A DNA stretch of 64,000 nucleotides from positions 1 to 64,000 of the forward strand of contig JAFXSG010000001.1 of assembly GCA_017525875.1 (NCBI GenBank), read 5' to 3'. The position numbers and the translations under genes were made by a program. This DNA comes from Clostridia bacterium (lineage in GTDB: Bacteria; Bacillota; Clostridia; Christensenellales; CAG-138). Within the stretch, counting starts at the first letter, position 1. Every line of letters begins with the position of its first letter. The notes under the pieces are model-generated. The model was not told the origin of the DNA and made no database searches. It saw nothing but the letters and a program-made list of their open reading frames with translations. Shown in pieces: positions 4,184 through 48,927 of the stretch.

Positions 4184-4579
4184 ATGTTTGCTTCTTTTGA
4201 TACAGGCTTCAGTTTCCTGAGGATACTGGGCATTCTGATCTTCGCGTTCGTCATCGGGATGTTCGTCTTCATCATCGTCAAAATGATCAGGGATAAGAGA
4301 AAGAACGACGCCTCACCGCGCCTGACGGTGGATGCGTTCGTCGTTTCCAAACACACGAGCACCAGCAGTTCAAGCCAGCCCGTGGCAGGCGATCCGACAG
4401 GCGCCCACGGCTTCCATCACATGACGACCACGGCTTATTTCGTGACCTTCGAGGTGCAGAGCGGCGACCGGATGGCGTTCGAGGTCGACGAAGCAGAGTA
4501 CGCTATGCTCGCAGAGGGCGATACAGGCAGGCTCAGCTTCCAAGGCACCCGCTATCTCGGGTTTGAGAGGGAGGCTTAA
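4184..4579 (+). CDS. DUF2500-like membrane protein
   Basis: A 131-aa protein with one N-terminal membrane helix (about residues 8-33), a short basic stretch and a small beta-rich domain. The domain shows the family pattern SPRLTVDAFVVSKHT, then YFVTFEVQSGDRMAFEV, then GDTGRLSFQGTRYLGFER. These are the landmarks of DUF2500 (YhhM-like) proteins, whose function is unknown. The start is ATG 4184, five bases after a strong AGGAGG. A GTG six bases earlier lies in the Shine-Dalgarno sequence itself and is less likely. The gene has its own promoter and stands alone. Confidence 0.75.
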   Translation: MFASFDTGFSFLRILGILIFAFVIGMFVFIIVKMIRDKRKNDASPRLTVDAFVVSKHTSTSSSSQPVAGDPTGAHGFHHMTTTAYFVTFEVQSGDRMAFEVDEAEYAMLAEGDTGRLSFQGTRYLGFEREA

Positions 4580-4721
4580 TACTTTAATAATAAGATCAAA
4601 ATCTTGGCTTCGGCAACGGCAGGCCTGCGCTGACGCCGAACCTTTACCGTGACAATTCTTTATAAAGCATTCACATAATAACACTTTAGATATTATCACA
4701 ACTGAACAGGGAGGTATTATT

Positions 4722-5585
4722 ATGGCATATTTAGATGGAAGGTGCCCTAATTGCGGAGGTGCGCTTAAGTTTGATTCGAGTTTGCCGACGGCAAAATGCC
4801 CTTATTGCGACTCGGTGATCCCTGCGGGCAATGTGATCATGATACCGGACATGGATGCCCTGAAAAAGGAGCGCCTGCTTAAAAACGCGGTGACCAGGGA
4901 GCGCTATGGGGAAACCAACGTCGCGCTCAGGATCTATTCGCAGGTCGCAGAGGACTACCCCGATGATTACCGCGGTTGGTACGGCATCGCCAGGCTGAGA
5001 TCGAAGGGCTTTACAGAGACCCCCACGAAGAAGGAGTACGAGGATATCGCCGAAAACATGCGCAAGGTCCTGATAGCGGCCGGACCTGCGGACAAGGGCA
5101 GACTGCAGGCGGAATGGGACGGATATGAGCAGAGCTACAAAGCTTTTCTGGACGGCAAGACCCGGGAGCTTTCGAGCATGCAGAGCGCGCACGACGAGCA
5201 GGTAAACAGGCGCGATAACGTCGCCGAAACGCTTAAGGACCACAGGGACGCCATGCAAAGCTTTGCAAGATCGCATTCCAAAAGGGGCAAAAAAGCTAAG
5301 TTTCCAACAGTGTTTTTCTTCGTGCTTGCGGCGGGCCTGATCTGCCTGCTCAACAGCTCGCGTTCGAAAAGCTTCCTGATCTTCGGCTTGCTGCTCGTTG
5401 GCATATTTGCGGAGGCCGTTGTCATAACGGTGCTTGTCAACTCGTCGAGAAAATCGGCCGCGGCACGGTATGAAGCGATGTCAGAGAAGGCCCAAAGGCT
5501 TCAGAGCGAATTGGACCGCATCAAAGCAAACCTCGACTCAGCGGACGATGAGATCGTGCGAATCCGCTATGCATACGGGCTTTGA
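4722..5585 (+). CDS. Zinc-ribbon, coiled-coil membrane protein of unknown function
   Basis: 287 aa. The N-terminus is a zinc ribbon with Cys8, Cys11, Cys26 and Cys29 (RCPNCGG ... KCPYCDS). A helical, TPR-like segment follows (about residues 50-130; ALRIYSQVAEDYPDDYRGWYGIARL), then a charged coiled coil (about 135-190). Two adjacent hydrophobic segments lie at about 195-243 and a second coiled coil extends to the C-terminus. The zinc-ribbon-plus-TPR opening is common in Firmicute proteins of unknown role, and no function can be assigned. GGGAGG precedes ATG 4722. The preceding 142 bases show no clear promoter. A terminator follows at 5631. Confidence 0.75.
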   Translation: MAYLDGRCPNCGGALKFDSSLPTAKCPYCDSVIPAGNVIMIPDMDALKKERLLKNAVTRERYGETNVALRIYSQVAEDYPDDYRGWYGIARLRSKGFTETPTKKEYEDIAENMRKVLIAAGPADKGRLQAEWDGYEQSYKAFLDGKTRELSSMQSAHDEQVNRRDNVAETLKDHRDAMQSFARSHSKRGKKAKFPTVFFFVLAAGLICLLNSSRSKSFLIFGLLLVGIFAEAVVITVLVNSSRKSAAARYEAMSEKAQRLQSELDRIKANLDSADDEIVRIRYAYGL

Positions 5586-6505: not shown

Positions 6506-7765
6506 ATGAACGTTGCCGTTATCGGCGCGGGCCCCGCGGGGCTCATCGCAGGAGCAATCGGCGCAAAGAACGGCGCCAGGGTGGAGATCATCGACCGCAA
6601 CGAGCGCGCCGGCAGAAAGCTGTACCTCACCGGCAAGGGCAGGTGCAATATCACGAATTCCGCCGATTTGGACGGCTTTATGAAGAACACCGTGCATAAC
6701 GGACGCTTCCTTTTCAGCGCGTTCTCCGGCTTTTTCTCAAACGATATCCTCGACATCCTTCAAAAAGAGGGCGTTCCCGTCAAGCTGGAGCGCGGCGGAA
6801 GGTATTTCCCGGAGAGCGACAAATCCAGCGACGTCATACGCGCGCTCGTGGCGTACGCCTCCCACTGCGGCGCAAGGTTCCTGCTCGGAACGGAAGTAAA
6901 GTCCGTCGAAAAAACCGACGCGGGCTTTACCGTTAAAACGAGCGGCGCATACGGCGGCACCAGGCAGTACGACCGCGTGATCCTCGCAACGGGCGGCATG
7001 AGCTATTCCTCGACCGGCTCCACCGGCGACGGGTATCGTTTCGCGGAGCATTTTTCCCACACGGTGCTCGCGCCGAAGCCCTCGCTCATCCCGTTTGAAA
7101 CGGCGGAAGACTGGCCGACGGAGCTGATGGGCCTTTCGCTCAAAAACGTCACGCTCAAGGCATATAAGCCAGAAAAAGACGGCGGCGCAAAGAAAAAACG
7201 CAAGCCCGTCTATGAAGAACTGGGCGAAATGCTGTTCACGCATTTCGGCGTCAGCGGGCCGCTCGTGCTCAGCGCTTCGAGCTATCTTGCGGACGAGCCA
7301 GCAGGCGCAAAGCTCACCGTCGACCTCAAACCCGCCCTCACAGAGGCCCAGCTCGACGCGAGGCTGTTGCGCGATTTCGACAAATACCGCCATAAGCAGG
7401 TCCACAACGCGATGCAGGAGGTGCTCCCGCAGAGGCTGATCGGGACCGTGCTCATGCTTTCCGGCGTTTCACCCGAGACCACGATCGACGAGCTCACCCG
7501 CGAGGAGCGCGGCGCGATCGTCAAGGCGCTCAAATGCATGGAGATGACCGTCAAACGGCCCAGGCCTATCGACGAGGCGATCATTACCCGCGGCGGCGTT
7601 TCCGTGAAGGAGATCGACCCGAAAACGATGGAGTCAAAGCTCGTTCCCGGGCTGTATTTCGCCGGTGAGCTCATCGATGCGGACGCGTGCACCGGAGGTT
7701 TCAATCTCCAGATCGCATGGTCGACCGGCGCCGCAGCCGGCGCTGCCTGCGCGGAAGAATACTGA
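6506..7765 (+). CDS. FAD-dependent oxidoreductase, HI0933/BaiN family
   Basis: 419 aa. The N-terminal dinucleotide-binding motif GAGPAG (8-13) and the signature GRKLYLTGKGRCNITN are typical of the HI0933/YhiN/BaiN flavoproteins. A conserved C-terminal segment reads GLYFAGELIDADACTGGFNLQIAWSTG and completes the FAD site. Some relatives act in bile-acid dehydroxylation, but most have no defined substrate, so the reaction is not assigned. AAAGGAG precedes ATG 6506, which is 15 bases after surE and 25 before the cmk start. Confidence 0.9.
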   Translation: MNVAVIGAGPAGLIAGAIGAKNGARVEIIDRNERAGRKLYLTGKGRCNITNSADLDGFMKNTVHNGRFLFSAFSGFFSNDILDILQKEGVPVKLERGGRYFPESDKSSDVIRALVAYASHCGARFLLGTEVKSVEKTDAGFTVKTSGAYGGTRQYDRVILATGGMSYSSTGSTGDGYRFAEHFSHTVLAPKPSLIPFETAEDWPTELMGLSLKNVTLKAYKPEKDGGAKKKRKPVYEELGEMLFTHFGVSGPLVLSASSYLADEPAGAKLTVDLKPALTEAQLDARLLRDFDKYRHKQVHNAMQEVLPQRLIGTVLMLSGVSPETTIDELTREERGAIVKALKCMEMTVKRPRPIDEAIITRGGVSVKEIDPKTMESKLVPGLYFAGELIDADACTGGFNLQIAWSTGAAAGAACAEEY

Positions 7766-38870: not shown

Positions 38871-41282
38871 ATGAGCGAACACTATGTCCATCTGCCGATC
38901 GAAGAAAAATGGCAGAAGATCTGGGACGACGCGCATTGCTTTGAGGCAAAGGACGATTACACCATGCCCAAATACTATGCGCTGATCGAGTTCCCGTTCC
39001 CCAGCGGCGCCGGCCTGCACGTCGGCCATCCGAGGAGCAACACGGCGCTCGATATCATCAGCCGCAAACGCAGGATGGAGGGCTATAACGTCCTCTTCCC
39101 GATCGGGTACGACAGCTTCGGCCTTCCCACCGAAAACTACGCGATCCGCACGGGCATCCACCCAGCAAAGGTCACGGAGCATAATATGCAGGTCTTCCAC
39201 AAGCAGCTCAAAATGCTCGGTTTCTCCTTCGATTATTCGAGAGAGATCTATACCTCCGATCCCGAGTATTACCGCTGGACGCAGTGGATCTTCCTGAAAC
39301 TGTTTGAAAAAGGCCTCGCGTACAAAGCGGAGCTGCCGATCAACTTCTGCACCGGCTGCAAGGTGGGCCTTGCGAATGAAGAGGTCGTGGACGGCTGCTG
39401 CGAGCGCTGCGGGTCGCCCGTCGTGCGCATCGTGCGCAGCCAGTGGATGCTGAAGATCACCGAGTATGCCGACCGTCTGATCGACGATCTCGATACCGTC
39501 GATTTCATCGACCGCGTCAAGACCTCCCAGAAAAACTGGATCGGCCGCAGCACCGGCGCGGAGGTCACCTTTAAGATCGAGGGCTGGCCCGAGGGCCTGC
39601 GCATCTATACCACCCGTCCTGACACTCTGTTCGGCGCGACCTATATGGTCATCGCGCCCGAGCATCCGCTCGTTGAGGCGATGGCGGACAGGATCAAAAA
39701 TATCGACGCAGTGCGCGACTACCGCGCCAAGGCCGCGAGAAAGAGCGATTTCGAGCGCAGCGAGCTTGCAAAGGACAAAACCGGCGTCATGCTCGAGGGC
39801 GTTACCGCGATCAACCCGGCCAACGGCAAACCCATCCCCATCTGGATCAGCGACTACGTCCTGATGGGCTACGGTACCGGCGCGATCATGGCCGTTCCCG
39901 CGCACGATACGAGGGACTATGAATTCGCCAAGACCATGGGCATGCCCATCGTGGAAGTCGTCGCCGGCGGCGATATCGAAAAAGAGGCGTTCACCGACTG
40001 CGAGACCGGCGTGCTGGTCAATTCCGGCTTCCTGAACGGGATGCAGGTCGAGGACGCGAAAAAGGCGATGATCGAGTGGCTCGAAAAAGAGGGCATCGGT
40101 CAGAAGAAGACCAACTTCAAGCTGCGTGACTGGCTGTTCAGCCGCCAGAGGTACTGGGGCGAGCCCATCCCGCTGGTCTACTGCGAGCACTGCGGCTGGG
40201 TCCCGATCCCGGAGGATCAGCTGCCCCTGAGGCTGCCGGATATCGAGGATTTCCGCCCGGCGGACGACGGCTCCTCCGCTCTTGCCCGCGCGACCGACTG
40301 GATCCACACCACCTGCCCCAAGTGCGGCGGTCCCGCCGAGCGCGAGATAGACACCATGCCCAACTGGGCCGGTTCGAGCTGGTACTATATGCGCTACTGC
40401 GATCCGCATAACGACAAGTGTCTGGCGGACCGCAAGAAGCTCGATTACTGGCTGCCCGTCGACTGGTACAACGGCGGCATGGAGCACACCACGCTGCACC
40501 TGCTTTACAGCCGCTTCTGGCATAAATTCCTCTATGATATCGGCGTCGTCGGCTGCCCGGAGCCCTACATGAAACGCACCAGCCACGGCATGATCCTCGC
40601 GGAGGACGGCCGCAAGATGAGCAAATCCTTCGGCAACGTCATCAATCCGGACGATCTCGTGAGGGAATACGGCGCCGACACCGTCCGTGCGTATGAAATG
40701 TTCATCGGCGCGTTCGATCAGACCATCCCATGGAGCACCGCCGGCGTGAAGGGCTGCCGCCGCTTCCTCGAAAGGGTGTGGCGCCTGCAGGATATGCTGA
40801 ATGACGGGCAGGGCGTCCGCAAGGAAATGGCCGCTTCGGTCCACGGCTGCATCAAGAAGGTCGGCGAGGACTACGAGCGCATGAAGTTCAACACCGCGAT
40901 CGCCGCGATGATGAGCCTTGTCAACGATTTCTATCAGAACGGCAGCGTCACGAAGGATGAGCTGAGAACGCTGCTGATCCTGATGAACCCCGTCTGCCCG
41001 CATATCACGGAGGAAATGAACGAGCTCATCGGCTTCACAACCCCGATCTATGCCTCGAAGTGGCCTCAGTACGACGAATCCGCTCTCGTGAAGGACGAGA
41101 TCGAGGTCGCCGTTCAGGTCAACGGCAAGATCCGCGCCAAGATGATGCTGCCCGTTGGAATGGAGCAGGACGCCGTGCGTGAGCTCGTGCTCGATAACCC
41201 GGAGGTCAAGCCCTGGATCGAGGGCAAGACCGTGATAAAGTTCATCGCGATCCGCAACATCGTAAACGTGGTCGTGAAGTAA
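38871..41282 (+). CDS. leuS: Leucyl-tRNA synthetase
   Basis: 803 aa. A class I synthetase charging tRNA-Leu. The HIGH motif is HVGH (50-53), the KMSKS motif is KMSKS (about 582-586, MSKSFGN). The editing (CP1) domain includes IYTTRPDTLFGATYMVIAPEH, and the zinc-binding segment CTGCKVGLANEEVVDGCCERCG lies before it. ATG 38871 has AAAGGAG eleven bases upstream; the open frame further upstream is T-box leader. The gene stands alone and ends at the terminator at 41367. Confidence 0.97.
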   Translation: MSEHYVHLPIEEKWQKIWDDAHCFEAKDDYTMPKYYALIEFPFPSGAGLHVGHPRSNTALDIISRKRRMEGYNVLFPIGYDSFGLPTENYAIRTGIHPAKVTEHNMQVFHKQLKMLGFSFDYSREIYTSDPEYYRWTQWIFLKLFEKGLAYKAELPINFCTGCKVGLANEEVVDGCCERCGSPVVRIVRSQWMLKITEYADRLIDDLDTVDFIDRVKTSQKNWIGRSTGAEVTFKIEGWPEGLRIYTTRPDTLFGATYMVIAPEHPLVEAMADRIKNIDAVRDYRAKAARKSDFERSELAKDKTGVMLEGVTAINPANGKPIPIWISDYVLMGYGTGAIMAVPAHDTRDYEFAKTMGMPIVEVVAGGDIEKEAFTDCETGVLVNSGFLNGMQVEDAKKAMIEWLEKEGIGQKKTNFKLRDWLFSRQRYWGEPIPLVYCEHCGWVPIPEDQLPLRLPDIEDFRPADDGSSALARATDWIHTTCPKCGGPAEREIDTMPNWAGSSWYYMRYCDPHNDKCLADRKKLDYWLPVDWYNGGMEHTTLHLLYSRFWHKFLYDIGVVGCPEPYMKRTSHGMILAEDGRKMSKSFGNVINPDDLVREYGADTVRAYEMFIGAFDQTIPWSTAGVKGCRRFLERVWRLQDMLNDGQGVRKEMAASVHGCIKKVGEDYERMKFNTAIAAMMSLVNDFYQNGSVTKDELRTLLILMNPVCPHITEEMNELIGFTTPIYASKWPQYDESALVKDEIEVAVQVNGKIRAKMMLPVGMEQDAVRELVLDNPEVKPWIEGKTVIKFIAIRNIVNVVVK

Positions 41283-41366
41283 GCAAGCCGAAACGGCTGC
41301 GCCGCGCTGTGGGGAGGGGCGCCTCCCGCGGAAAACGCGGCGCGCTCGGAAAATGTGCATGATAAA

Positions 41367-41400
41367 AGCCGGGAGCTTCTTGCTCCCGGCTCCGTTTTTA
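41367..41400 (+). terminator. Terminator after leuS
   Basis: AGCCGGGAGC (41367-41376) and GCTCCCGGCT (41382-41391) with a five-base loop, then CCGTTTTTA. Confidence 0.87.
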
Positions 41401-41427
41401 TCGGTTCATGCCTTCGGCGCCCGATCA

Positions 41428-41511
41428 ATCGGGCAGCTCGTAATCACGCGGTTCGCCGATGCTGCTGTAAAAATGCAGCCCGCCGTCCGCCAGGGAAAGT
41501 TGCGGATGCAT
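41428..41511 (-). CDS. Possible 27-aa ORF at the end of the accessory operon
   Basis: ATG 41511 lies two bases after the stop of the 177-aa gene and gives 27 codons ending in EPRDYELPD. The composition is protein-like. The stop codon falls in the loop of a 7-bp hairpin (GCCCGAT/ATCGGGC). No clear SD is present apart from possible coupling to the previous stop. It may be a real short peptide, a remnant of a longer gene, or chance. Confidence 0.3.
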
Positions 41512-41513
41512 GA

Positions 41514-42047
41514 TCATAGCACTGCAGCAAGTATCGCGTTCGCAAGATCAATGTTTGGAATGAACATCGCGCGGACATAGGGAAACCGCTCGTTTATGAA
41601 GCAGTACTGCTTCTCGTTCCGGGTGAAATAGGCGTTCCCGGGATAGCCCTTAGTCGATTTGAGCTCGCAAAGCGTCATTCGGACGGCGGCACCGTTATCC
41701 GCGCGTTTGAACTTGAGCGTTTCGAGCCTTTCGATATCGCTCTCCTTAACGAAATTGGGCGCCTTGTCGAGGCCCGTGAGAGCGCCGCTGCCGGTGAACG
41801 CGAAGGGAACGTCCCTCTTTTCGGTCCCTGAAGTAACGGTAATGCTGTCCGAGCACATCACGTTGTCGTAGATCGCAAGGTTCTTTTCGGTACGTGTGTT
41901 CCAAAGCATCCAGCAGAGGAATATGGACACCGCCACGAAACAGATGATGGGCAGCACGGACTTGCGCTTATTCTTCGTGACTATTAATATCACTATGAAT
42001 ACGGCCGCAAGCAAGCCCGCTGCAATAAATGCGTCGTAAAAATGCAT
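41514..42047 (-). CDS. Two-TM membrane protein of unknown function
   Basis: 177 aa. Two N-terminal hydrophobic helices (about residues 4-24 and 31-50) are separated by a short basic turn (TKNKRKS). An extracytoplasmic domain of about 125 residues follows, with charged segments and YPGNAYFTRNEKQYCFINE. No family was recognised. AGGAGG lies before ATG 42047, 12 bases after the 303-aa gene stop, so it is the last clear gene of the minus-strand operon starting at 43266. Base composition is closer to the chromosome than that of the preceding gene. An accessory or immunity-like role for its secreted neighbour is speculation. Confidence 0.7.
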   Translation of the reverse strand: MHFYDAFIAAGLLAAVFIVILIVTKNKRKSVLPIICFVAVSIFLCWMLWNTRTEKNLAIYDNVMCSDSITVTSGTEKRDVPFAFTGSGALTGLDKAPNFVKESDIERLETLKFKRADNGAAVRMTLCELKSTKGYPGNAYFTRNEKQYCFINERFPYVRAMFIPNIDLANAILAAVL

Positions 42048-42059
42048 ATGTACCTCCTA

Positions 42060-42971
42060 TCAATATGGCGGGATATACCCATCTCGATGGTTACAGTATG
42101 CTATGTAGGCGATGTAGTTGTCATTGTTGTAATACTGATCACATACACCGGAGTCATAGCTGAGTGTTGCTCCGATGTCACCAAGCGTGGCTAACCAAGT
42201 TAGGTTCTCCCAAGAATTATTGTAAACTACATTGGAAATATAAGCATTTTTAATATAATGCGCAATAACATTATAGCGCTTAAACTTTACCGTTTGTACT
42301 AATTCATACAATCCATTCAATGCTAAAGCAAAGCTTGCTATTGCAAGTGCATCGCCACTTGATAATCCAAGCACGGCACATACGACAGATAATACGGTAT
42401 TAATCACCATGGTTGTACAGCTAGAATAATTGTAATCATAAGATAACGAATCACGCAAAACCACTGAAATACCACTCACTACTATTACTCTGGTATTATG
42501 GTCAGTGTATTCATTGGGCATGCCGCCGGAGACCATTGCATTATGTATTTTGTTGTAGTCAGCAGTTGGAATTGATTTGGGATTGCTGATTGAAGACTCG
42601 AAAATTACACTGCGTACTGGTACCTTTGCAAATTCTTGAGCACTTAATTCATTGGCAAACGTTTTTATGCTGTCAGTATCTATGCGTTCGCATGTTACAC
42701 CAGATGTATAGGTGAAACTATCAGAACCAATATAATACTTAGCAAAATCAAAGGTGTGAGTTTGAGCATTATAAGTTGCGCATATGCGAAGGACATCATT
42801 TGAATAGTAGTATACTACTGTGTTCTCAAAAATGCTTATGTCCTCAACAACTGTATTGGGATCCATATAGGAGCAATCCCTTCCTCTCAAATCCTTTACA
42901 TCGGCAAACGAGGGGGCTGAGGTCAGCAGCAAGAGAAGCATCGAAATAATAACACAAATAATCTTTTTCAT
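42060..42971 (-). CDS. AT-rich gene for a secreted protein of unknown function
   Basis: 303 aa. A clear signal peptide (MKKIICVIISMLLLLLTSAPSFA, cleavage near residue 23, given here in outline) precedes a soluble part. A long hydrophobic segment rich in Ala, Leu and Ser (about 187-222, SVVCAVLGLSSGDALAIASF) is followed by a Tyr/Asn-rich C-terminus with YDSGVCDQYYNNDNYIAYIAY. Six or more cysteines are present. The internal hydrophobic stretch in a secreted protein recalls membrane-active or pore-forming proteins, but no family was recognised. Codon and base use are clearly more AT-rich than in all flanking genes, suggesting recent acquisition. AAGGAGG lies seven bases before ATG 42971. Confidence 0.75.
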   Translation of the reverse strand: MKKIICVIISMLLLLLTSAPSFADVKDLRGRDCSYMDPNTVVEDISIFENTVVYYYSNDVLRICATYNAQTHTFDFAKYYIGSDSFTYTSGVTCERIDTDSIKTFANELSAQEFAKVPVRSVIFESSISNPKSIPTADYNKIHNAMVSGGMPNEYTDHNTRVIVVSGISVVLRDSLSYDYNYSSCTTMVINTVLSVVCAVLGLSSGDALAIASFALALNGLYELVQTVKFKRYNVIAHYIKNAYISNVVYNNSWENLTWLATLGDIGATLSYDSGVCDQYYNNDNYIAYIAYCNHRDGYIPPY

Positions 42972-42991
42972 ATATACCTCCTTCTGTTATT

Positions 42992-43210
42992 TCAGAAGCT
43001 CAATTTTGAACGTTTTCTTATAGATCTGTTATGCAAGCAGTGCAGAAGCAAATCAAACCAAACGACCAAAGCCATAAGATACAGCAGAACATCGGTTGTG
43101 TATATACTTGTCCATCTCCGACATATTGCCATAAACAATTGATAGTGTAATTTTCTCGATTGAATCACGTAACACGTGATCACTGTAACACAACATAATA
43201 TTGTCGTCAA
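42992..43210 (-). CDS. Small two-TM protein, translationally coupled
   Basis: 72 aa from TTG 43210. Two hydrophobic segments (about 3-16 and 43-58) are separated by a basic linker, ending in a strongly basic tail (NRSIRKRSKLSF). Its TTG overlaps the TGA of the preceding 19-aa ORF (TTGA), and its stop lies just before the SD of the 303-aa gene, so the three are arranged as one tight operon. AT-rich like its neighbour. No family was recognised. A competing frame (+1) over 43010-43205 also has a protein-like composition but has no start codon. Confidence 0.45.
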   Translation of the reverse strand: MTTILCCVTVITCYVIQSRKLHYQLFMAICRRWTSIYTTDVLLYLMALVVWFDLLLHCLHNRSIRKRSKLSF

Positions 43211-43266
43211 GCTCGCTCCAAGACGTCCACTTCTTCGTTCCTACCGGAACGGACTATGACGCGCAT
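43207..43266 (-). CDS. 19-aa leader peptide ORF
   Basis: ATG 43266 has the strongest SD of the region, GGAGGAGGG (43281-43273), six bases upstream. The 19 codons (MRVIVRSGRNEEVDVLERA) end in TGA 43209-43207, which overlaps the TTG start of the 72-aa gene. It lies directly behind the conserved promoter block. It may be a coupling leader that delivers ribosomes to a weak TTG start, or a functional small peptide. Confidence 0.5.
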   Translation of the reverse strand: MRVIVRSGRNEEVDVLERA

Positions 43267-43282
43267 TCTTTTCCCTCCTCCT

Positions 43283-43340
43283 ACTATATAAACAATCGAA
43301 ACACCGTTTGGGGGACAGCCGTTCTGAAAATATATTATTT
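43283..43340 (-). promoter_or_regulatory. Conserved promoter block, copy 1 (minus-strand operon)
   Basis: Read on the minus strand: AAATAATATATTTT (43340-43327), nine bases, TGTCCCC (43317-43311), twelve bases, CGATTGTT, then TATAGT (43288-43283). It lies 17 bases before the 19-aa ORF. The same blocks in the same order and orientation precede the 145-aa secreted protein gene and the ECF sigma gene. If TATAGT were the -10, the start would fall in the SD, so CGATTG may act as the -10. Confidence 0.8.
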
Positions 43341-43372
43341 TTTACGCCTATTGCGAGCATAAAGTCTGCTGC

Positions 43373-43429
43373 AAATAATATATTTTGATTTTCTTGTCCC
43401 CCTTTTGGATTCTCGTTTGTTAATATTAT
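43373..43429 (+). promoter_or_regulatory. Conserved promoter block, copy 2 (145-aa secreted protein)
   Basis: AAATAATATATTTT (43373-43386), eight bases, TGTCCCC (43395-43401), then CTTTTGGATTCT, CGTTTGTTAATATTAT. It is nearly identical to the copy before the ECF sigma gene. It is divergent from copy 1, the two AT-rich boxes being 32 bases apart. Confidence 0.82.
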
Positions 43430-43433
43430 ATGG

Positions 43434-43445
43434 TCGATATATCGA
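43434..43445. promoter_or_regulatory. Perfect 12-bp palindrome in the leader of the 145-aa gene
   Basis: TCGATATATCGA lies just after the promoter block and 36 bases before the gene start. It could be a binding site for a dimeric repressor, but there is no second copy near the other two promoters. Confidence 0.35.
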
Positions 43446-43481
43446 TGCGCGCGATAAATCCTTATCGGCCGGAGGTAACAA

Positions 43482-43919
43482 ATGAAAACTTCTATCAAAC
43501 GCTGCTCTGTCCTTCTCCTCACCATGCTGCTGCTTGTTATGAGTATAGCCGTGCCGCTCTATAAGGCTTCGGCGGCGATTACTTACAACAATACCGTGAG
43601 CGCTGATCTCGGCTGTACCGTCAACTCGAGCGGCCGTCTGAGCGCCGCAATGGTTGTTTTGGGTTATGCCGGAACGACGAAAAAGATACAGGTCGAACTT
43701 TACATTGAAAAGCGGTTCCTGCTTGTCTTCTGGTCGCGCGTCGACATCGGTTGTCCGAACAACATTTGGACCGATTCGAAAACCGGATACAGCTATTCCA
43801 ACACGTTTGATTTTGATCTGCCCTCCACCGGCACCTACCGTACGACGGTCACTTACACGGTGTCCGGTACGGGCGGCACTGACGATGTTATAACAAAGAC
43901 CGATACGGTAACATACTGA
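43482..43919 (+). CDS. Small secreted protein of unknown function
   Basis: 145 aa. A signal peptide with a long Leu/Met-rich core ends near residue 31 (YKASA/AITYN). The mature part of about 114 residues is Thr/Ser/Tyr-rich with alternating hydrophobic residues, suggesting a beta-sandwich: VSADLGCTVNSSGRLSAAMVVLG, KKIQVELYIEKR, FDFDLPSTGTYRTTVTYTVSGTG (in order). Two cysteines could form a disulphide. No family was recognised. GGAGG lies seven bases before ATG 43482. The gene is driven by the same promoter type as the ECF sigma gene and the divergent operon, so its product is likely made under the same signal. Confidence 0.75.
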   Translation: MKTSIKRCSVLLLTMLLLVMSIAVPLYKASAAITYNNTVSADLGCTVNSSGRLSAAMVVLGYAGTTKKIQVELYIEKRFLLVFWSRVDIGCPNNIWTDSKTGYSYSNTFDFDLPSTGTYRTTVTYTVSGTGGTDDVITKTDTVTY

Positions 43920-43926
43920 TCGTAAA

Positions 43927-43957
43927 AAGGGGCCCGTCTGCAAGAGGCGGGCCCCTT
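43927..43957. terminator. Bidirectional terminator between the 145-aa and anti-sigma genes
   Basis: AAGGGGCCCG (43927-43936) and CGGGCCCCTT (43948-43957) pair perfectly. The T-run is better on the minus strand (AAAAA at 43924-43928), so it ends the sigma/anti-sigma transcript and probably also the 145-aa mRNA. Confidence 0.82.
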
Positions 43958-43960
43958 AAA

Positions 43961-44632
43961 TCATTTGACGGCAACGGATGAAATGTAATCTATGATTTGA
44001 TCGAGATCGACCTGAGAAACCGACGTGTAAGCGAGGGAGAAATAATAACCGTCTTCTGTCCATGCGGCATGTGCCGTTGTTTCGGTCAAATAGATGAGCA
44101 CGGTTTTTCCGTTTATCCCGTATTCTTCAAACACACCGTGTTCATTGTCCACAGATTCCGATACGTTGCTGCTGGCTCTCTGCTTTAAACAGAGCATCGT
44201 GTTTTCGCCCTTGACATAAAAGATACATATGTAATCTTCGGTTTTTATCGTTTTGTATTCCACAAACCCCTCCGGCACGGGTACGAGACCGTACTCCTCT
44301 TCGATAGCCATTTTGGTTATCTCGGGATCGGAATACTCCACGTGATCCCCGAAGACCTGCACAAGGAACCCGGCGACGGACGAGCGGATCCTTTTCGATG
44401 TGAAGGCGAGCGAGCAGAGCACGAGCACCGCGGCAGCGGCGATCCACAGTATGCGGCGGATGGGGACGCTGCGCTTTGCGGCGGGGCGGCCGCTTTGCAG
44501 CAGGGCCTGCATCCTCTCTTCAAAGCGCGGGGAAAACCGGTATGGCTCGGCTTCGGCGGCTGCGATCGCTTCCGCGAACTCGGCGTCGAGCCTTTTGCCG
44601 TATACTTCCAAAAACAAAGCTTCGATGTTCAT
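43961..44632 (-). CDS. Putative anti-sigma factor with DUF4367-like domain
   Basis: 223 aa. The cytoplasmic N-terminus (1-58) is helical. One transmembrane helix (about 60-80, ILWIAAAAVLVLCSLAF) is followed by an extracytoplasmic domain ending in ETTAHAAWTEDGYYFSLAYTSVSQVDLDQIIDYI (in order), which resembles DUF4367 domains of Firmicute membrane proteins coupled to sigma factors. The gene overlaps the ECF sigma gene by four bases, with GGGAGG before ATG 44632. By position and topology it should hold the sigma factor at the membrane until an external signal is sensed. There is no zinc-finger (ZAS) motif in the N-terminus. Confidence 0.72.
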   Translation of the reverse strand: MNIEALFLEVYGKRLDAEFAEAIAAAEAEPYRFSPRFEERMQALLQSGRPAAKRSVPIRRILWIAAAAVLVLCSLAFTSKRIRSSVAGFLVQVFGDHVEYSDPEITKMAIEEEYGLVPVPEGFVEYKTIKTEDYICIFYVKGENTMLCLKQRASSNVSESVDNEHGVFEEYGINGKTVLIYLTETTAHAAWTEDGYYFSLAYTSVSQVDLDQIIDYISSVAVK

Positions 44633-45183
44633 TCTTCCGTTCCTCCCTGCTCTGTTATCGCGCCGCGCAGCAGCTTCCTTGCGCGGTGCAGTCGTTTTTT
44701 GATCGTTTCCGGCTTTTCGCCAAGGAGCCTCGCGATCTCCTTCACGGATGCGCCTTCAAGCTGCAGGAAAAGCGCGTCCGAATACAGCGGATCCATCCCG
44801 TCTAACGCTCCGAGGAGCTTCCTCACCAGAGCCCTGTCGTCCATGCGTTCGGCAAGCTCATCGTCCGCGTGAACGAACGCCTTGGAAAGCATGGGACTTG
44901 GGACGGGAACGATCCGTGACTGACGGCTTGAAAAGCTGATCGCCCGGTTTTTCGCACATACCAGCAGAAAGCGCAGGCGGGCTTCGTCGTCCTTATCCCT
45001 CAGCGCGGGAATGAACGATTCCGCAAGAGCGGAGAATACGTCGTGCACAACGTCCTCCGCGTCCGCATCGTTTTGCACGTACCTGCGGGCCGCGCGGAAC
45101 ATCGCGCCGCCGAACCGTTCGTAAAAGCCGTTCAGCAAGGCGAGATCCTCTCCGGGGATCGCCGCTGTAAGAAATAAAAGCAT
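44629..45183 (-). CDS. ECF-type RNA polymerase sigma factor
   Basis: 184 aa from ATG 45183, which has AGGAGT five bases upstream. A start at 45216 would lie only a few bases after the -10 and is rejected. Sigma region 2 has YERFGGAMFRAARRYVQNDADAEDVVHDVFSAL (core- and -10-binding; DAEDVVHDVF is typical). Region 4 has LDGMDPLYSDALFLQLEGASVKEIARLLGEKPETIKKRLHRARKLL (in order) with its HTH. The anti-sigma gene overlaps its 3' end. Its promoter (45225-45281) matches two others in the neighbourhood, suggesting positive autoregulation and a small local regulon. Confidence 0.85.
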   Translation of the reverse strand: MLLFLTAAIPGEDLALLNGFYERFGGAMFRAARRYVQNDADAEDVVHDVFSALAESFIPALRDKDDEARLRFLLVCAKNRAISFSSRQSRIVPVPSPMLSKAFVHADDELAERMDDRALVRKLLGALDGMDPLYSDALFLQLEGASVKEIARLLGEKPETIKKRLHRARKLLRGAITEQGGTEE

Positions 45184-45224
45184 CGTTACTCCTCTTTGGG
45201 GATGCGCCTTTCTCATTCCCTTAC

Positions 45225-45281
45225 ACTATATTAACAAACGAAAAGCCAAAATGGGGACAACAATTTGAAAATATATTATTT
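45225..45281 (-). promoter_or_regulatory. Conserved promoter block, copy 3 (ECF sigma operon)
   Basis: Minus strand: AAATAATATATTTT (45281-45268), eight bases, TGTCCCC (45259-45253), ATTTTGGCTTTT, CGTTTGTTAA, TATAGT (45230-45225). Apart from three or four bases it equals the block before the 145-aa gene. Confidence 0.82.
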
Positions 45282-45340
45282 TTACAGGCGAAAAAGCCGT
45301 AAATTCAACTTTAATTAGAATTATTTCAATTTTCGCGTTA

Positions 45341-45369
45341 TTTACAAGCCGCACGAATGCCCCTATAAT
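45341..45369 (+). promoter_or_regulatory. Promoter of the XRE regulator
   Basis: TTTACA (45341-45346), 17-bp spacer, TATAAT (45364-45369), 45 bases before the gene. Divergent from the ECF sigma promoter. Confidence 0.75.
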
Positions 45370-45413
45370 ATGAGCCGTACCCGGGAACAAAACAAAGAAA
45401 GGAAACTAAGAAA

Positions 45414-45938
45414 ATGGATAATCTTAAAATAGGAAACTACATCCAGAACCTCCGCAAAAAAGCCGGCCTCACCCAGAAGGACCTTGCGGACAAACTGAAC
45501 ATATCGTTCCAGGCGGTCTCCAAGTGGGAGACGGGGGAGAGCCTCCCCGATACCGGAATACTGCTCGACCTTGCCGACATCCTCGGCACCTCGGTGGATA
45601 AGCTGCTCTGCGGCGGCGCTGTCGTCGCAGGCGAGCGCGGGCTCATGAAGCTTGAGGACGTTAAGACCGGCTTTGCCCACCTTGAGGACATAGGCCGTCT
45701 CTTCGGCGCCAACTGCACCTTCTTCACCGGCATGATCGAGGGCATCAACGAGAAGATGAATATCGACATCCTGGGCTATCTCAAAGAGCCCCGTACCCGC
45801 GAGGTCATGTACGCCGAGGTCCTGATCCAGGGCATCCTCGAGGGCAGGACCGTGGATATTGACGAGATCGAAGCCGAGTTCACGAACAAGAAGATGGTGG
45901 AGACCATACGCAAGTACCTGATGAAAACAGGTGAATAA
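45414..45938 (+). CDS. XRE-family transcriptional regulator
   Basis: 174 aa. Residues about 6-60 form a lambda-repressor-like HTH (IGNYIQNLRKKAGLTQKDLADKLNISFQAVSKWETGESLPD, in order). The C-terminal 110 residues are helical, without a recognised ligand or protease domain. AAAGGAAA precedes ATG 45414. It is transcribed away from the ECF sigma gene from its own promoter. Whether it controls the accessory genes to its left is not known; no paired operator was found. Confidence 0.85.
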   Translation: MDNLKIGNYIQNLRKKAGLTQKDLADKLNISFQAVSKWETGESLPDTGILLDLADILGTSVDKLLCGGAVVAGERGLMKLEDVKTGFAHLEDIGRLFGANCTFFTGMIEGINEKMNIDILGYLKEPRTREVMYAEVLIQGILEGRTVDIDEIEAEFTNKKMVETIRKYLMKTGE

Positions 45939-46030
45939 GATGCTTTTAAGCCAACAAAAGCGGACGCTTTCGGGGCACACTTCGCAAGGAAGTTGCTCGG
46001 AGGCAGCAATTATCGGCTCAGAAGAAAAAG

Positions 46031-46150: not shown

Positions 46151-47044
46151 CTAAATCAGTTTTTTTGCCAGCTTTTCTGCCAGGTTCAGATAATACCCGT
46201 ATCTTTCATCGTCGCGGGAATCGTAACGGTTGCCAAGCATGATCCATTCACAATACTCATAAAACAGGAAATAGTCCAGCGTTCGACGAAACTCCTCCTG
46301 TGAGATTCCGTGCTGTTTTGCCACCGCATCATAATAGTACGCTATGGCAAATTCACGGTCCTCAGCCGACATATAGAAATAGTAATCTCTGTTTTCTCTA
46401 CCGTGAGCTATCAGGCGTGCAAAAGCACCCATGTAAGGGAGGACACCGCCGTACTCCCAATCAATAAAGACTGCACGCTCGTTGTTAACAAGTACGTTGA
46501 TCGGCAACAGATCATCATGACAAAGCGAACGCGGTGTTTCGCGGAATACTCGTTCAAACTTACGGTATACCTTTTCAAGCAGTTCCGATCCGAGGTATTT
46601 GCCGCGGTTTTCTATCCCTTCCAGTGCTTTTTCCATAGTCACACAGGCGTCGTAAAGCTCTGTGCGCTCCCAGAATTCGTTCTGCATTTCAGCCAGAGCA
46701 TCGAGCACAAGTTTCAGTCGCCTTCTGTCACAGACACGCAGATCAGTTCCCGCAAAAAACTCTGTAATGAAATACTCCTGCCCGTTATAATGGCAGGCGC
46801 CGAAAAAAGATGGAATGTATGGCTGCCTGTCGCTGAAGAAACAGCGATAAGCATCGATCTCATAGGCTTTTGCCTGTTTCAGAACATATTTCGTGCATCC
46901 GTTATCAACCAACCAGACCAAATATTCGTTCCCGCCTTCTTCTGAAACGAACGCCTTGACGGATGAATCACACATTCCCGGAATCTCGAATTGGGTCAGT
47001 ATCGCTTTAATTTCAGATAATGATGGTCGCTGTTTTTCTTCCAT
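46151..47044 (-). CDS. Aminoglycoside-phosphotransferase-like kinase
   Basis: 297 aa from ATG 47044, with GAGGG just upstream and the promoter -10 only 39 bases away; an upstream TTG (47083) would precede the transcription start. The fold is APH/choline-kinase type: KYVLKQAKAYEIDAYR (ATP-binding Lys), YFITEFFAGTDL (hinge), the catalytic Brenner motif CHDDLLPINVLV and the metal-binding IDWEYGG. Substrates in this superfamily range from antibiotics to choline and sugars; the substrate here is unknown, and resistance should not be assumed. Confidence 0.82.
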   Translation of the reverse strand: MEEKQRPSLSEIKAILTQFEIPGMCDSSVKAFVSEEGGNEYLVWLVDNGCTKYVLKQAKAYEIDAYRCFFSDRQPYIPSFFGACHYNGQEYFITEFFAGTDLRVCDRRRLKLVLDALAEMQNEFWERTELYDACVTMEKALEGIENRGKYLGSELLEKVYRKFERVFRETPRSLCHDDLLPINVLVNNERAVFIDWEYGGVLPYMGAFARLIAHGRENRDYYFYMSAEDREFAIAYYYDAVAKQHGISQEEFRRTLDYFLFYEYCEWIMLGNRYDSRDDERYGYYLNLAEKLAKKLI

Positions 47045-47082
47045 ACCCTCAGTCCCTCTGTAAAAATGCGGTTGTTGAGACA

Positions 47083-47111
47083 ATTATACCATCCCTTTTC
47101 GGCAAATTCAA
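47083..47111 (-). promoter_or_regulatory. Promoter of the APH-like kinase
   Basis: Minus strand: TTGAAT (47111-47106), 17-bp spacer, TATAAT (47088-47083). Confidence 0.72.
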
Positions 47112-47210: not shown

Positions 47211-48407
47211 TCATTCGGCTGCGCCGTTGTTGAACATGGATACGATGCCGCTGAGCCCGGTGAGCCTTTCCGCATCCGCTTTATCGGCGCAGATCATGAA
47301 GCCGTAGATCTCAAAGCCGTTCGCTTCGACCTTCTGCGCCGCTTCCCTGAGCTCCGCCGCAATGCCTTCGGCGCCGGACAGCATCGTGATCCCTTCATTC
47401 TTTTCCGCCGCATAGCTGAGCATGCTGACAAGATGCTGTTTAACGTCATTTTCGCCGTAGCTCAGGGAGAACTCGCTGCTTCGCTTTGCAAGCATATCCG
47501 CGGCTGTGAGGAGGGGATAGTCTTTGTCGATGGGCTCGTCGGAAACGCCCACGAATGCGACCGGAGCACAGGCGAGGAAGCCGCAGGGGTTGGGCATCAG
47601 CAGCTTGCCGCCTGAGCAGACCGCGCACCAGTAGGGCTCGACTCCGTTCTGCCTGCACCACGCTTCAAACTCTGTATAGCTCATCGCGTGATCGAGCGTC
47701 ACGTAGACGCAGCGCTGCCCGTTCTCGGGGTAGTAATCGATGAACTCCTTTGCGTTGAAATCCCAGTTGCTTTCATAAAGGTTTTCGCCGCTGAGCCCCG
47801 CTTTCATGGGTTCAAGGCAGTTGACCGGGGGCATCTTGAGCAGGCTCGGGTCGTAGAGCGAAATCATGCCCTTCTTGATGAAGCCCGCCGTGTCGCGGAA
47901 ATTGCCGGAAATGCTCTGCACCTGCGGGATGAAAACGGAGTAGTTGCCGTAGCCCTCGCCGTTTGCGGTTGACTGCTGACGGATCCTCTCGGGCACGAAC
48001 AGCTCCGTGTAGACGGCAAGGTCGACGTCCAGCCGCGAAACGGTAATGCCCGAATCATAGCTCTTGACCACCTCGGTTGGGTCGTAGTACGCCTTTGAAA
48101 CGAGGCCGGGCAGCGCAAACATGATGAATAGCGCAGCCGCAAGCACGATCGCCCCGGTGATGAGCCCCGCCTTGAGGAACGAACGCCTGATCTGGCGGCG
48201 GATCTTCTTCGTGAAGTCCTGCGCTTCGGCCTTTTCATCACCGATCGGATCGCTGCCAAGGGTCAGGTCATGAAGGCCGATATCGTCGCGCTCGGCGATA
48301 TAGTCCGCGATAGCCTCATGCTTTTCGATATCGCTCTCCAAAGCCGCCGCTTCCTCTCCGGAAAGCTTGCCCTGCTTGTATTCTTCGATCATTTCAGAGA
48401 ATTTCAT
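47211..48407 (-). CDS. Anti-sigma factor with Sigma_reg_N/Sigma_reg_C-type domains
   Basis: 398 aa. The cytoplasmic N-terminus (1-80; MIEEYKQGKLSGEEAAALESDIEKHEAIADYI, in order) resembles the sigma-regulator N-terminal domain. One transmembrane helix (about 82-104) is followed by a large extracytoplasmic domain with YWCAVCSGGKLLMPNPCGF and a C-terminal Sigma_reg_C-like part. The gene overlaps the ECF sigma gene by 14 bases on the same strand. It should sequester that sigma factor and sense an envelope signal. This is a different type from the anti-sigma at 43961. Confidence 0.82.
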   Translation of the reverse strand: MKFSEMIEEYKQGKLSGEEAAALESDIEKHEAIADYIAERDDIGLHDLTLGSDPIGDEKAEAQDFTKKIRRQIRRSFLKAGLITGAIVLAAALFIMFALPGLVSKAYYDPTEVVKSYDSGITVSRLDVDLAVYTELFVPERIRQQSTANGEGYGNYSVFIPQVQSISGNFRDTAGFIKKGMISLYDPSLLKMPPVNCLEPMKAGLSGENLYESNWDFNAKEFIDYYPENGQRCVYVTLDHAMSYTEFEAWCRQNGVEPYWCAVCSGGKLLMPNPCGFLACAPVAFVGVSDEPIDKDYPLLTAADMLAKRSSEFSLSYGENDVKQHLVSMLSYAAEKNEGITMLSGAEGIAAELREAAQKVEANGFEIYGFMICADKADAERLTGLSGIVSMFNNGAAE

Positions 48408-48894
48408 CGTTGTTTTCCTCCAACATTGTCTTTAATTCTTTCTTTGCCCTGTGGGACAGCACCCGAACGTTCGCGGGGCTGAGGTTCAGCATTTCGGCGG
48501 CCTGCGCAAGCGGGAAACCGGAGAAGTACTGCAGGATGATCACCTCGCGCTTCTGCCTGTCCAGCCGGAGGATCGCTTCGTAGAGCTTCCTCGAACGCAG
48601 CTTTTCAAACAGGATCGTCTCCGCTTCTCCTTCGCTGCCGGGCAGTTCGCCGATCGCGTCGATATCGACCGCCGCCCCGCGGCTGCGAAAGTGGTTGATA
48701 AAGAGGTTCCTCGCCACTTTGTAGAGCCATGCGCGGATGTTCGCGTGCCCATCCGGGAGGGAGAGCAGCGCCTTCACGAAGGTCTCCTGCGTGAGGTCTT
48801 CGGCAAGCTGCCGATCCCGTGAAAGCGAATAGAGATAGACGAGTATCTCGCGGCTGTACTTCCCGTAGACCTGCTGTAAAAGATCGCCGTTCAT
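48394..48894 (-). CDS. ECF-type RNA polymerase sigma factor (second)
   Basis: 166 aa from ATG 48894, with AGGAGG six bases upstream; an in-frame ATG at 48924 is less likely. Region 2: YGKYSREILVYLYSLSRDRQLAEDLTQETFVKALLSL, including the typical AEDLTQETF. Region 4: LDRQKREVIILQYFSGFPLAQAAEMLNLSPANVRVLSHRAKKEL (both in order). It overlaps its anti-sigma gene. The upstream DNA has TGTAACA (48956-48950), not the TGTCCCC block found with the other ECF factor, so the two systems are probably insulated. Confidence 0.9.
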   Translation of the reverse strand: MNGDLLQQVYGKYSREILVYLYSLSRDRQLAEDLTQETFVKALLSLPDGHANIRAWLYKVARNLFINHFRSRGAAVDIDAIGELPGSEGEAETILFEKLRSRKLYEAILRLDRQKREVIILQYFSGFPLAQAAEMLNLSPANVRVLSHRAKKELKTMLEENNDEIL

Positions 48895-48927
48895 GCTGCA
48901 CCTCCTTTCCTCATCGGCTTTCACAAA

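Follow-up and report, generated by a model that had tools for sequence, protein, structure and literature searches.

The SigW-RsiW system of B. subtilis is an autoregulated regulon of an ECF sigma factor and a membrane anti-sigma factor, with promoters of the type TGAAAC/CGTA. The consensus of a UP element is an A/T-rich, AAAWWTWTTTT-like box located upstream of the -35 element. According to one study, ECF sigma factors in most cases regulate their own expression, and A/T-rich UP elements strengthen the activity of ECF promoters in E. coli (PMC3817407). Two further sources describe an exported protein that acts on the outer part of the anti-sigma factor in the RpoE-RseA-RseB system (PMC8103513) and the binding of lysozyme by RsiV-type anti-sigma factors (PMC5014341). 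A search of 5.39 million open-licence papers gave no paper that names DUF4367, and the term 'Extracytoplasmic function' occurs together with Christensenellales in no paper of the literature searched.

We analysed a 64,000-nucleotide stretch of DNA from a Clostridia bacterium of the Christensenellales, termed the window, in which a first-pass annotation had placed three promoter blocks around an ECF sigma gene. All three were confirmed at the positions it had reported. In our reading, to which we assign a probability of roughly 75%, RNA polymerase with the neighbouring ECF sigma factor uses the blocks as promoters, including a proposed release from the anti-sigma factor, a UP element and the induction of surface genes. 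The locus contains the following features:

41514..42047, minus strand: 177-aa membrane protein, second gene of a pair, no accepted family (Pfam, NCBIfam)
42060..42971, minus strand: 303-aa secreted protein, no accepted family (Pfam, NCBIfam)
43268..43343, minus strand: block A, exact pattern, profile E 4.2e-12; AT box 43327-43340, TGTCCC 43312-43317, CGATTGT 43292-43298, purine tract next
43369..43444, plus strand: block B, exact pattern, profile E 9.5e-11; AT box 43373-43386, TGTCCC 43395-43400, CGTTTGT 43414-43420, weak purine tract
43482..43919, plus strand: p145, secreted protein of 145 aa, tail-to-tail with the anti-sigma gene
43927..43957, no strand assigned: strong hairpin where the p145 and anti-sigma genes converge, -27.7 kcal/mol, z -4.9
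43961..44632, minus strand: putative membrane anti-sigma factor, DUF4367 (PF14285), 42.6 bits against a gathering cut-off of 22.1
44629..45183, minus strand: ECF sigma factor of 184 aa when read from its likely start (Sigma70_r2, Sigma70_r4_2, TIGR02937)
45210..45285, minus strand: block C, exact pattern, profile E 3.2e-14; AT box 45268-45281, TGTCCC 45254-45259, CGTTTGT 45234-45240, purine tract

Block A lies upstream of the 303/177-aa gene pair, block B upstream of the p145 gene and block C upstream of the ECF sigma gene. The pattern AAATAATATATTTT-N(6-12)-TGTCCCC matches exactly three times in the 2,487,806-base genome, each time in the window (43311-43340, minus; 43373-43401, plus; 45253-45281, minus), and its reversed control gave no match. 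The fixed order of motifs described earlier holds, but its spacer wording is replaced by a distance of exactly 13 nt from TGTCCC to CG in 3/3 blocks. Likewise, the boxes named at that time are present, and the blocks additionally contain a conserved purine tract after the -10 element, which is weak at block B. The first-pass annotation had not noticed the block before any other gene of the window, and in a window scan, TGTCCC-N13-CG[AT]TTGT occurs exactly at blocks A, B and C only. When two mismatches were allowed, six matches were found in the window versus a mean of 2.18 in 100 shuffles, two of which reached six.

The sigma factor matches Sigma70_r2 with 31.1 bits and Sigma70_r4_2 with 44.1 bits, both above the Pfam cut-offs, and the NCBIfam model TIGR02937 with 60.1 bits versus a cut-off of 42.9. 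Pfam returned matches to regions 2 and 4 only, with none to region 1 or region 3, and the predicted protein thus shows the features of a group IV (ECF) sigma factor that were tested. Its start, previously set at 45216, is instead likely the ATG at 45183, which has a good ribosome site and is shared with relatives. The downstream gene overlaps the sigma gene by 4 nt and encodes a short cytoplasmic part, one hydrophobic span (assigned by eye) and an outer DUF4367 domain, which is matched by 8/9 aligned members of this anti-sigma group, the window protein included. We regard it as the candidate cognate anti-sigma factor of the adjacent sigma factor. As in SigW-RsiW, there is a two-domain sigma factor, an overlapping gene for an anti-sigma factor with a membrane span, an own promoter among the targets and a regulon directed at the envelope. 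In contrast to the TGAAAC/CGTA promoters of that system, the regulon in the window uses TGTCCC as -35 and CG[AT]TTGT as -10; moreover, the promoter includes an AT box as a constant element, the outer domain is DUF4367 and nearly all targets are unannotated. With the RsiV type, the window anti-sigma factor shares the layout of a membrane protein with an outer sensing domain (PMC5014341), whereas it matches DUF4367 and shows no RsiV-type domain among its Pfam matches. The window also contains a second ECF sigma gene (SigM-like) with a Sigma_reg_C partner and without a block upstream (47211-48924, minus) and a phosphotransferase-family (APH) gene (46151-47083, minus; 34.5 bits versus a cut-off of 23.2).

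The claim that the regulated products are unrecognised secreted or membrane proteins holds for the 145-, 303- and 177-aa products, for which no family was accepted in Pfam or NCBIfam. For p145, no sequence relative was found in the PDB at E<=1, and a Pfam identity was rejected, as eight families were each matched by 1 of 14 members with a best E of 0.014. Among 103 family genomes the 303-aa protein has a single partial relative, in G097; a search for its viral relatives gave one pattern match and none was confirmed. On contig C23 of the same genome, a relative of the 177-aa protein adjoins this 303-aa relative, and both (L124, about 4217-5291, minus) lie behind an AT box and a TTGACA/TATAAT-type promoter, without a block. 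In the window, the long leader of the 303-aa gene begins with a 19-codon ORF that has a strong ribosome site (43200-43265, minus). The hairpin at 43927..43957 is a probable two-way terminator, which is absent from the list of the terminator scan. No Rfam element was found in 41000-46000 at E<=1.

The first-pass annotation had described the locus as a compact, self-contained island. The wording compact, self-contained was dropped because five more strong sites lie on other contigs of the genome, namely C32, C11 (two sites), C14 and C52, the last of these before another ECF sigma gene. In the 2.49-Mb genome, TGTCCC-N13-CG[AT]TTGT occurs exactly six times (three in the window, one on C32, two on C11). 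The R1 profile yielded eight strong sites (E 3e-14 to 1e-9) and two weak ones on C11 (2e-4, 8e-4), with the next match at 0.23. Outside the window, the strong site on C32 precedes a gene for a 278-aa protein with a signal peptide, those on C11 precede two lipoprotein genes, and that on C14 precedes a gene for a 353-aa secreted protein with dockerin and leucine-rich-repeat matches that are both below the Pfam cut-off. On C52, the site precedes a sigma gene (C52:39645) in which regions 2 and 4 both score above cut-off. As a TTGACA/TATAAT-like promoter follows the block ahead of this gene, a sigma cascade is no more than a possibility here. In the stretch concerned (L085 2664-4370, plus; C52:39663), the block precedes both the sigma gene and a 278-aa protein without Pfam match. 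One weak C11 site precedes a p166-p145 gene pair, and the second is a tandem site ahead of a C11 lipoprotein gene. In this genome the blocks precede genes for proteins with a signal peptide, some of them lipoproteins, or for ECF sigma factors, with the exception of one small cytoplasmic gene that precedes a secreted one. Two more paralogous sigma/anti-sigma/145-aa modules are located on C11 and C52.

Throughout the genus, the exact core TGTCCC-N13-CG[AT]TTGT was found 18 times in 11 genomes and its reversed control not once. In the whole family the core occurs 24 times versus 11 in the reversed control, and none of these 11 lies in the genus. Exact cores in G073, G092 and G109 lack the AT box and purine tract and were set aside, as they look like background. 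Searching 103 family genomes with the R1 profile gave 49 sites at E<=5.4e-5, of which 17 had been in the training set of the profile. These sites are distributed over 15 genomes and 2 of 26 genera; the other 24 genera contain none at this limit, under scan filters that were stricter for the family and lose weak matches. At the loose limit of E<=0.1, matches occur in 36 genomes, and those outside the two genera are for the most part short and weak.

Of the 49 strong sites, 46 are followed within 700 nt by a co-directed ORF of 110 aa or more, and three have no called gene in that range; two pairs of sites share one gene each (G104:C63, G095:C52). The 46 block genes comprise 38 for signal-peptide proteins, 3 for ECF sigma factors, 4 of the p166 family and one fragment (G007:C38) of a lipoprotein gene, which G002 carries at full length. 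By a simple hydrophobicity rule, a signal peptide is thus encoded by 38/46 block genes versus 10/47 window genes, an enrichment whose p-value is weakened by shared descent and whose baseline takes in two regulon genes. The sequence, placement, rarity and conservation of the blocks are direct observations, as is the predominance of secreted targets. Pfam matches were few among 23 distinct target or operon proteins: NlpC/P60 was below cut-off in two, dockerin above cut-off only in the L118 target, whose site is weak (E 0.028), and the remaining matches were Sigma70 in one protein and low-complexity PT repeats. The p166 family consists of small cytoplasmic proteins of about 160-210 aa, encoded often directly upstream of p145 and sometimes alone behind a block (L029 5673-6173, minus; L114, L111, L110, L077, L122), and three scanned members gave no Pfam match.

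Relatives of p145 occur in 11/103 family genomes, confined to the same two genera as the strong blocks, and by profile in 2/248 genomes sampled across the order. The nine named loci with p145 relatives are all metagenome-assembled; four carry labels that name the rumen or omasum of buffalo or sheep, and another is labelled Christensenella sp. UBA1214. In 14/14 full-length relatives the p145 gene lies tail-to-tail with a DUF4367 gene, and so does a 36-residue p145 remnant in G001:C7. The contigs of G010 and G101 end within the anti-sigma gene, which leaves its sigma gene out of view. As to the co-occurrence in other genomes proposed as a check, 9/103 genomes have both block and p145, 6 have the block only and 2 p145 only (86 neither; p 1e-7, overstated by relatedness). 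ECF matches in 33/41 relatives were not used as support, as they show merely that ECFs are common. The constant pairing of p145 with DUF4367 provides a concrete candidate for what DUF4367 anti-sigma factors sense. RpoE-RseA-RseB is a possible parallel (PMC8103513), with the difference that p145 has no detectable family and that its putative role is guessed from gene order.

Each block looks like a -35/-10 promoter that has a UP-element-like AT box, in most cases some 10 or 20 bp upstream, and a run of purines behind the -10. The 17 core-selected genus blocks have in common an upstream AT box (AATATATT) and a purine tract (about TAGAGGGGAAAG). At least 7/8 letters of AATATATT are present within 60 nt in 40/42 inspected blocks, 32 of them at 8-11 nt, six at 18-21 nt and one each at 30 and 48 nt. 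Some of these 42 were found with a pattern demanding an AT box 4-14 nt away, and the 17 core-selected blocks are therefore the fair sample for phasing: from the end of the AT box to TGTCCC they have 8-11 nt in 12 cases and 20-21 nt in four, with one unclear. Such whole-turn spacing suggests that a protein touches the DNA from one side of the helix, for which the alpha subunit bound to a UP element would be the simplest candidate. The blocks carry the A/T-rich box upstream of the -35 that defines the UP-element consensus, and none of blocks A, B and C has a TTGACA-like and a TATAAT-like element 16-18 nt apart, as in a sigma-A promoter. The ECF promoters in PMC3817407 likewise have A/T-rich DNA upstream of the -35; there, the UP elements are a synthetic addition in E. 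coli, whereas the AT box of the blocks is natural, sequence-conserved and placed in whole-turn spacing. In 34/34 blocks the base 37 nt beyond the initial T of TGTCCC is a purine, and the purine tract is located where transcription should start. A role as STAB-SD mRNA stabiliser by pairing with the 16S 3' end was rejected, as 34 boxes gave -8.19 versus -7.33 kcal/mol in shuffles (p=0.21); compared with downstream sequence, the pairing of the 34 boxes gave p=0.013.

The promoter letters appear to follow the sigma lineage in part. Across 13 loci, promoters differ more where the sigma factors differ more, with correlated distances at the -35 (r=0.45, p=0.0006) and at the -10 (r=0.27, p=0.045), with p-values that are weakened by shared descent; the correlation itself may reflect shared descent of linked DNA. 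The letters read TGTCCA...CGTGTGC in G102, TTACCC...CAATTGT in G004 and TGTCC[TC] with TNATGTG or TCAGGTG in G103 and G104:C20. G103 has three blocks laid out as in the window, its divergent block preceding a regulator-like gene and not one for a secreted protein. A block lies upstream of the sigma gene in the window, G001:C7, G103 and G104:C20. By eye, a housekeeping-type promoter seems to serve the sigma gene on C11 and C52 and in G102, G104:C63 and G098, mostly sharing its AT box with the divergent block. We consider this a natural class of ECF promoter with a built-in, helically phased AT box, the code of which would shift with the sigma lineage. A variant block, TGTCAG...GGATTGT, divergent from an ECF sigma gene was seen on C31 of the window's genome (L038 3344, minus) and in G001:C127 (L037 1139, plus).

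Comparative data give good support to the proposal of the first-pass annotation that ECF promoters here mark a regulon, namely the fixed ECF-like spacing of the blocks, their rarity, the sigma/anti-sigma linkage in two genera and the sigma-linked letters. Sigma dependence, alpha contact, the signal and the mode of anti-sigma release are inferred. At rest, the DUF4367 membrane protein would hold the sigma factor, and an envelope signal on its outer domain would free it. The freed sigma factor would recognise TGTCCC (-35) and CG[AT]TTGT (-10), 13 nt apart, assisted by the phased AT box as a UP element touched by the alpha subunit. Output would be more of the sigma operon, p145, the 303/177-aa pair and the unlinked surface-protein genes. 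Counting against this model, G006 and G008 have a strong block but no close relative of the sigma factor (E at best 7e-5 and 8e-6; G008 is 68% complete), and G002 and G007 have sigma and block without p145. The same holds for the sigma genes that seem to use a housekeeping-type promoter, the divergent block of G103 and the three strong sites with no called gene. Several paralogous sigma factors could share blocks. A regulon is now available for testing in uncultured gut Clostridia, with surface proteins that are nearly all unannotated.

The blocks might be ECF promoters read mainly by a paralogous sigma factor of the C11, C52 or C31 type, or by several together, with the window sigma as at most one reader. 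Seven ECF matches to the window sigma at E<=0.001 in the genome, three of them (window, C11, C52) at E<1e-15, fit this version, as do the C11 sites with their own spacer letters (TGTCCCAGTGCATGCAT) and the variation of the C14 and C52 sites at the end of the -35. We nevertheless judge it unlikely, given that the top profile match in the genome is the window sigma's own promoter and that promoter letters tend to follow the linked sigma. Another version, which we consider improbable, takes the blocks as housekeeping promoters with an extended -10 (TGnTATA) and TGTCCCC/TTTTGG as the operator of another transcription factor. Many blocks indeed read TGTTATA after the conserved CGAT, and the conserved AT palindrome could bind a regulator. 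However, the gap from TGTCCC to TATA is 20 nt, which is wrong for a sigma-A -35; 0/9 sigma-70-like matches in 42000-46000 use the -35 and -10 of a block, two overlapping AT boxes only; and the HTH gene neighbouring the locus in the window has just two relatives (L122, L114) in 32 stretches.

Finally, the blocks could belong to a mobile or dispersed repeat, for example as terminal inverted repeats around 43373-45281, since blocks B and C form a 54-nt inverted repeat of 87% that flanks p145, anti-sigma and sigma genes. This orientation arises because the two promoters face inward on convergent genes. The first-pass annotation had named a dispersed repeat, or a block at many unrelated genes, as a finding that would speak against it, and the profile search of the genome ended in a gap after eight strong and two weak sites. 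With just 8-10 sites in the genome, 46/49 family sites upstream of called, co-directed genes and relatives that keep the module with different block letters, a mobile repeat is extremely improbable. Our preferred reading remains that of promoters used by polymerase with the ECF sigma factor encoded next to them.

For some co-regulated surface genes, promoter and signal seem to have been copied and the displayed part exchanged, a pattern seen in three cases. The C11 lipoprotein genes (L083 1297-2238, minus, and 6705-7586, minus) are 93% identical in a DNA segment of 325 bp that starts about 44 nt ahead of TGTCCC and reaches to about residue 47; the proteins encoded beyond it show no mutual match at E<=1e-3. 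In G104, the C63/C40 pair is 91% identical over 499 bp, up to a point near residue 50, while 365 bp are 88% identical in the G009:C172 pair; the remainders are unrelated in both. Shared promoter, leader and signal with unrelated remainders in these three pairs suggest a cassette for regulated surface display. As contrasting pairs, G098 is alike throughout, G101 shares 72 bp and G002:C8 showed no DNA match. If the pattern holds, it would be a means of diversifying a co-regulated surface repertoire. A doubtful extension is a signal-controlled surface display in which ECF promoter, leader, signal peptide and linker are copied and the displayed domain is swapped, with p145 as the extracellular partner that sets the response of the anti-sigma factor in an autocrine or self-monitoring loop; the part given to p145 in anti-sigma control is a guess from gene order. 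Separately, a group of related secreted block proteins of 590-665 aa is encoded in L077 (8670-10439, minus), L110 (151-2145, minus) and L172, with 23-53% identity, and two scanned proteins of this group show NlpC/P60 below cut-off.
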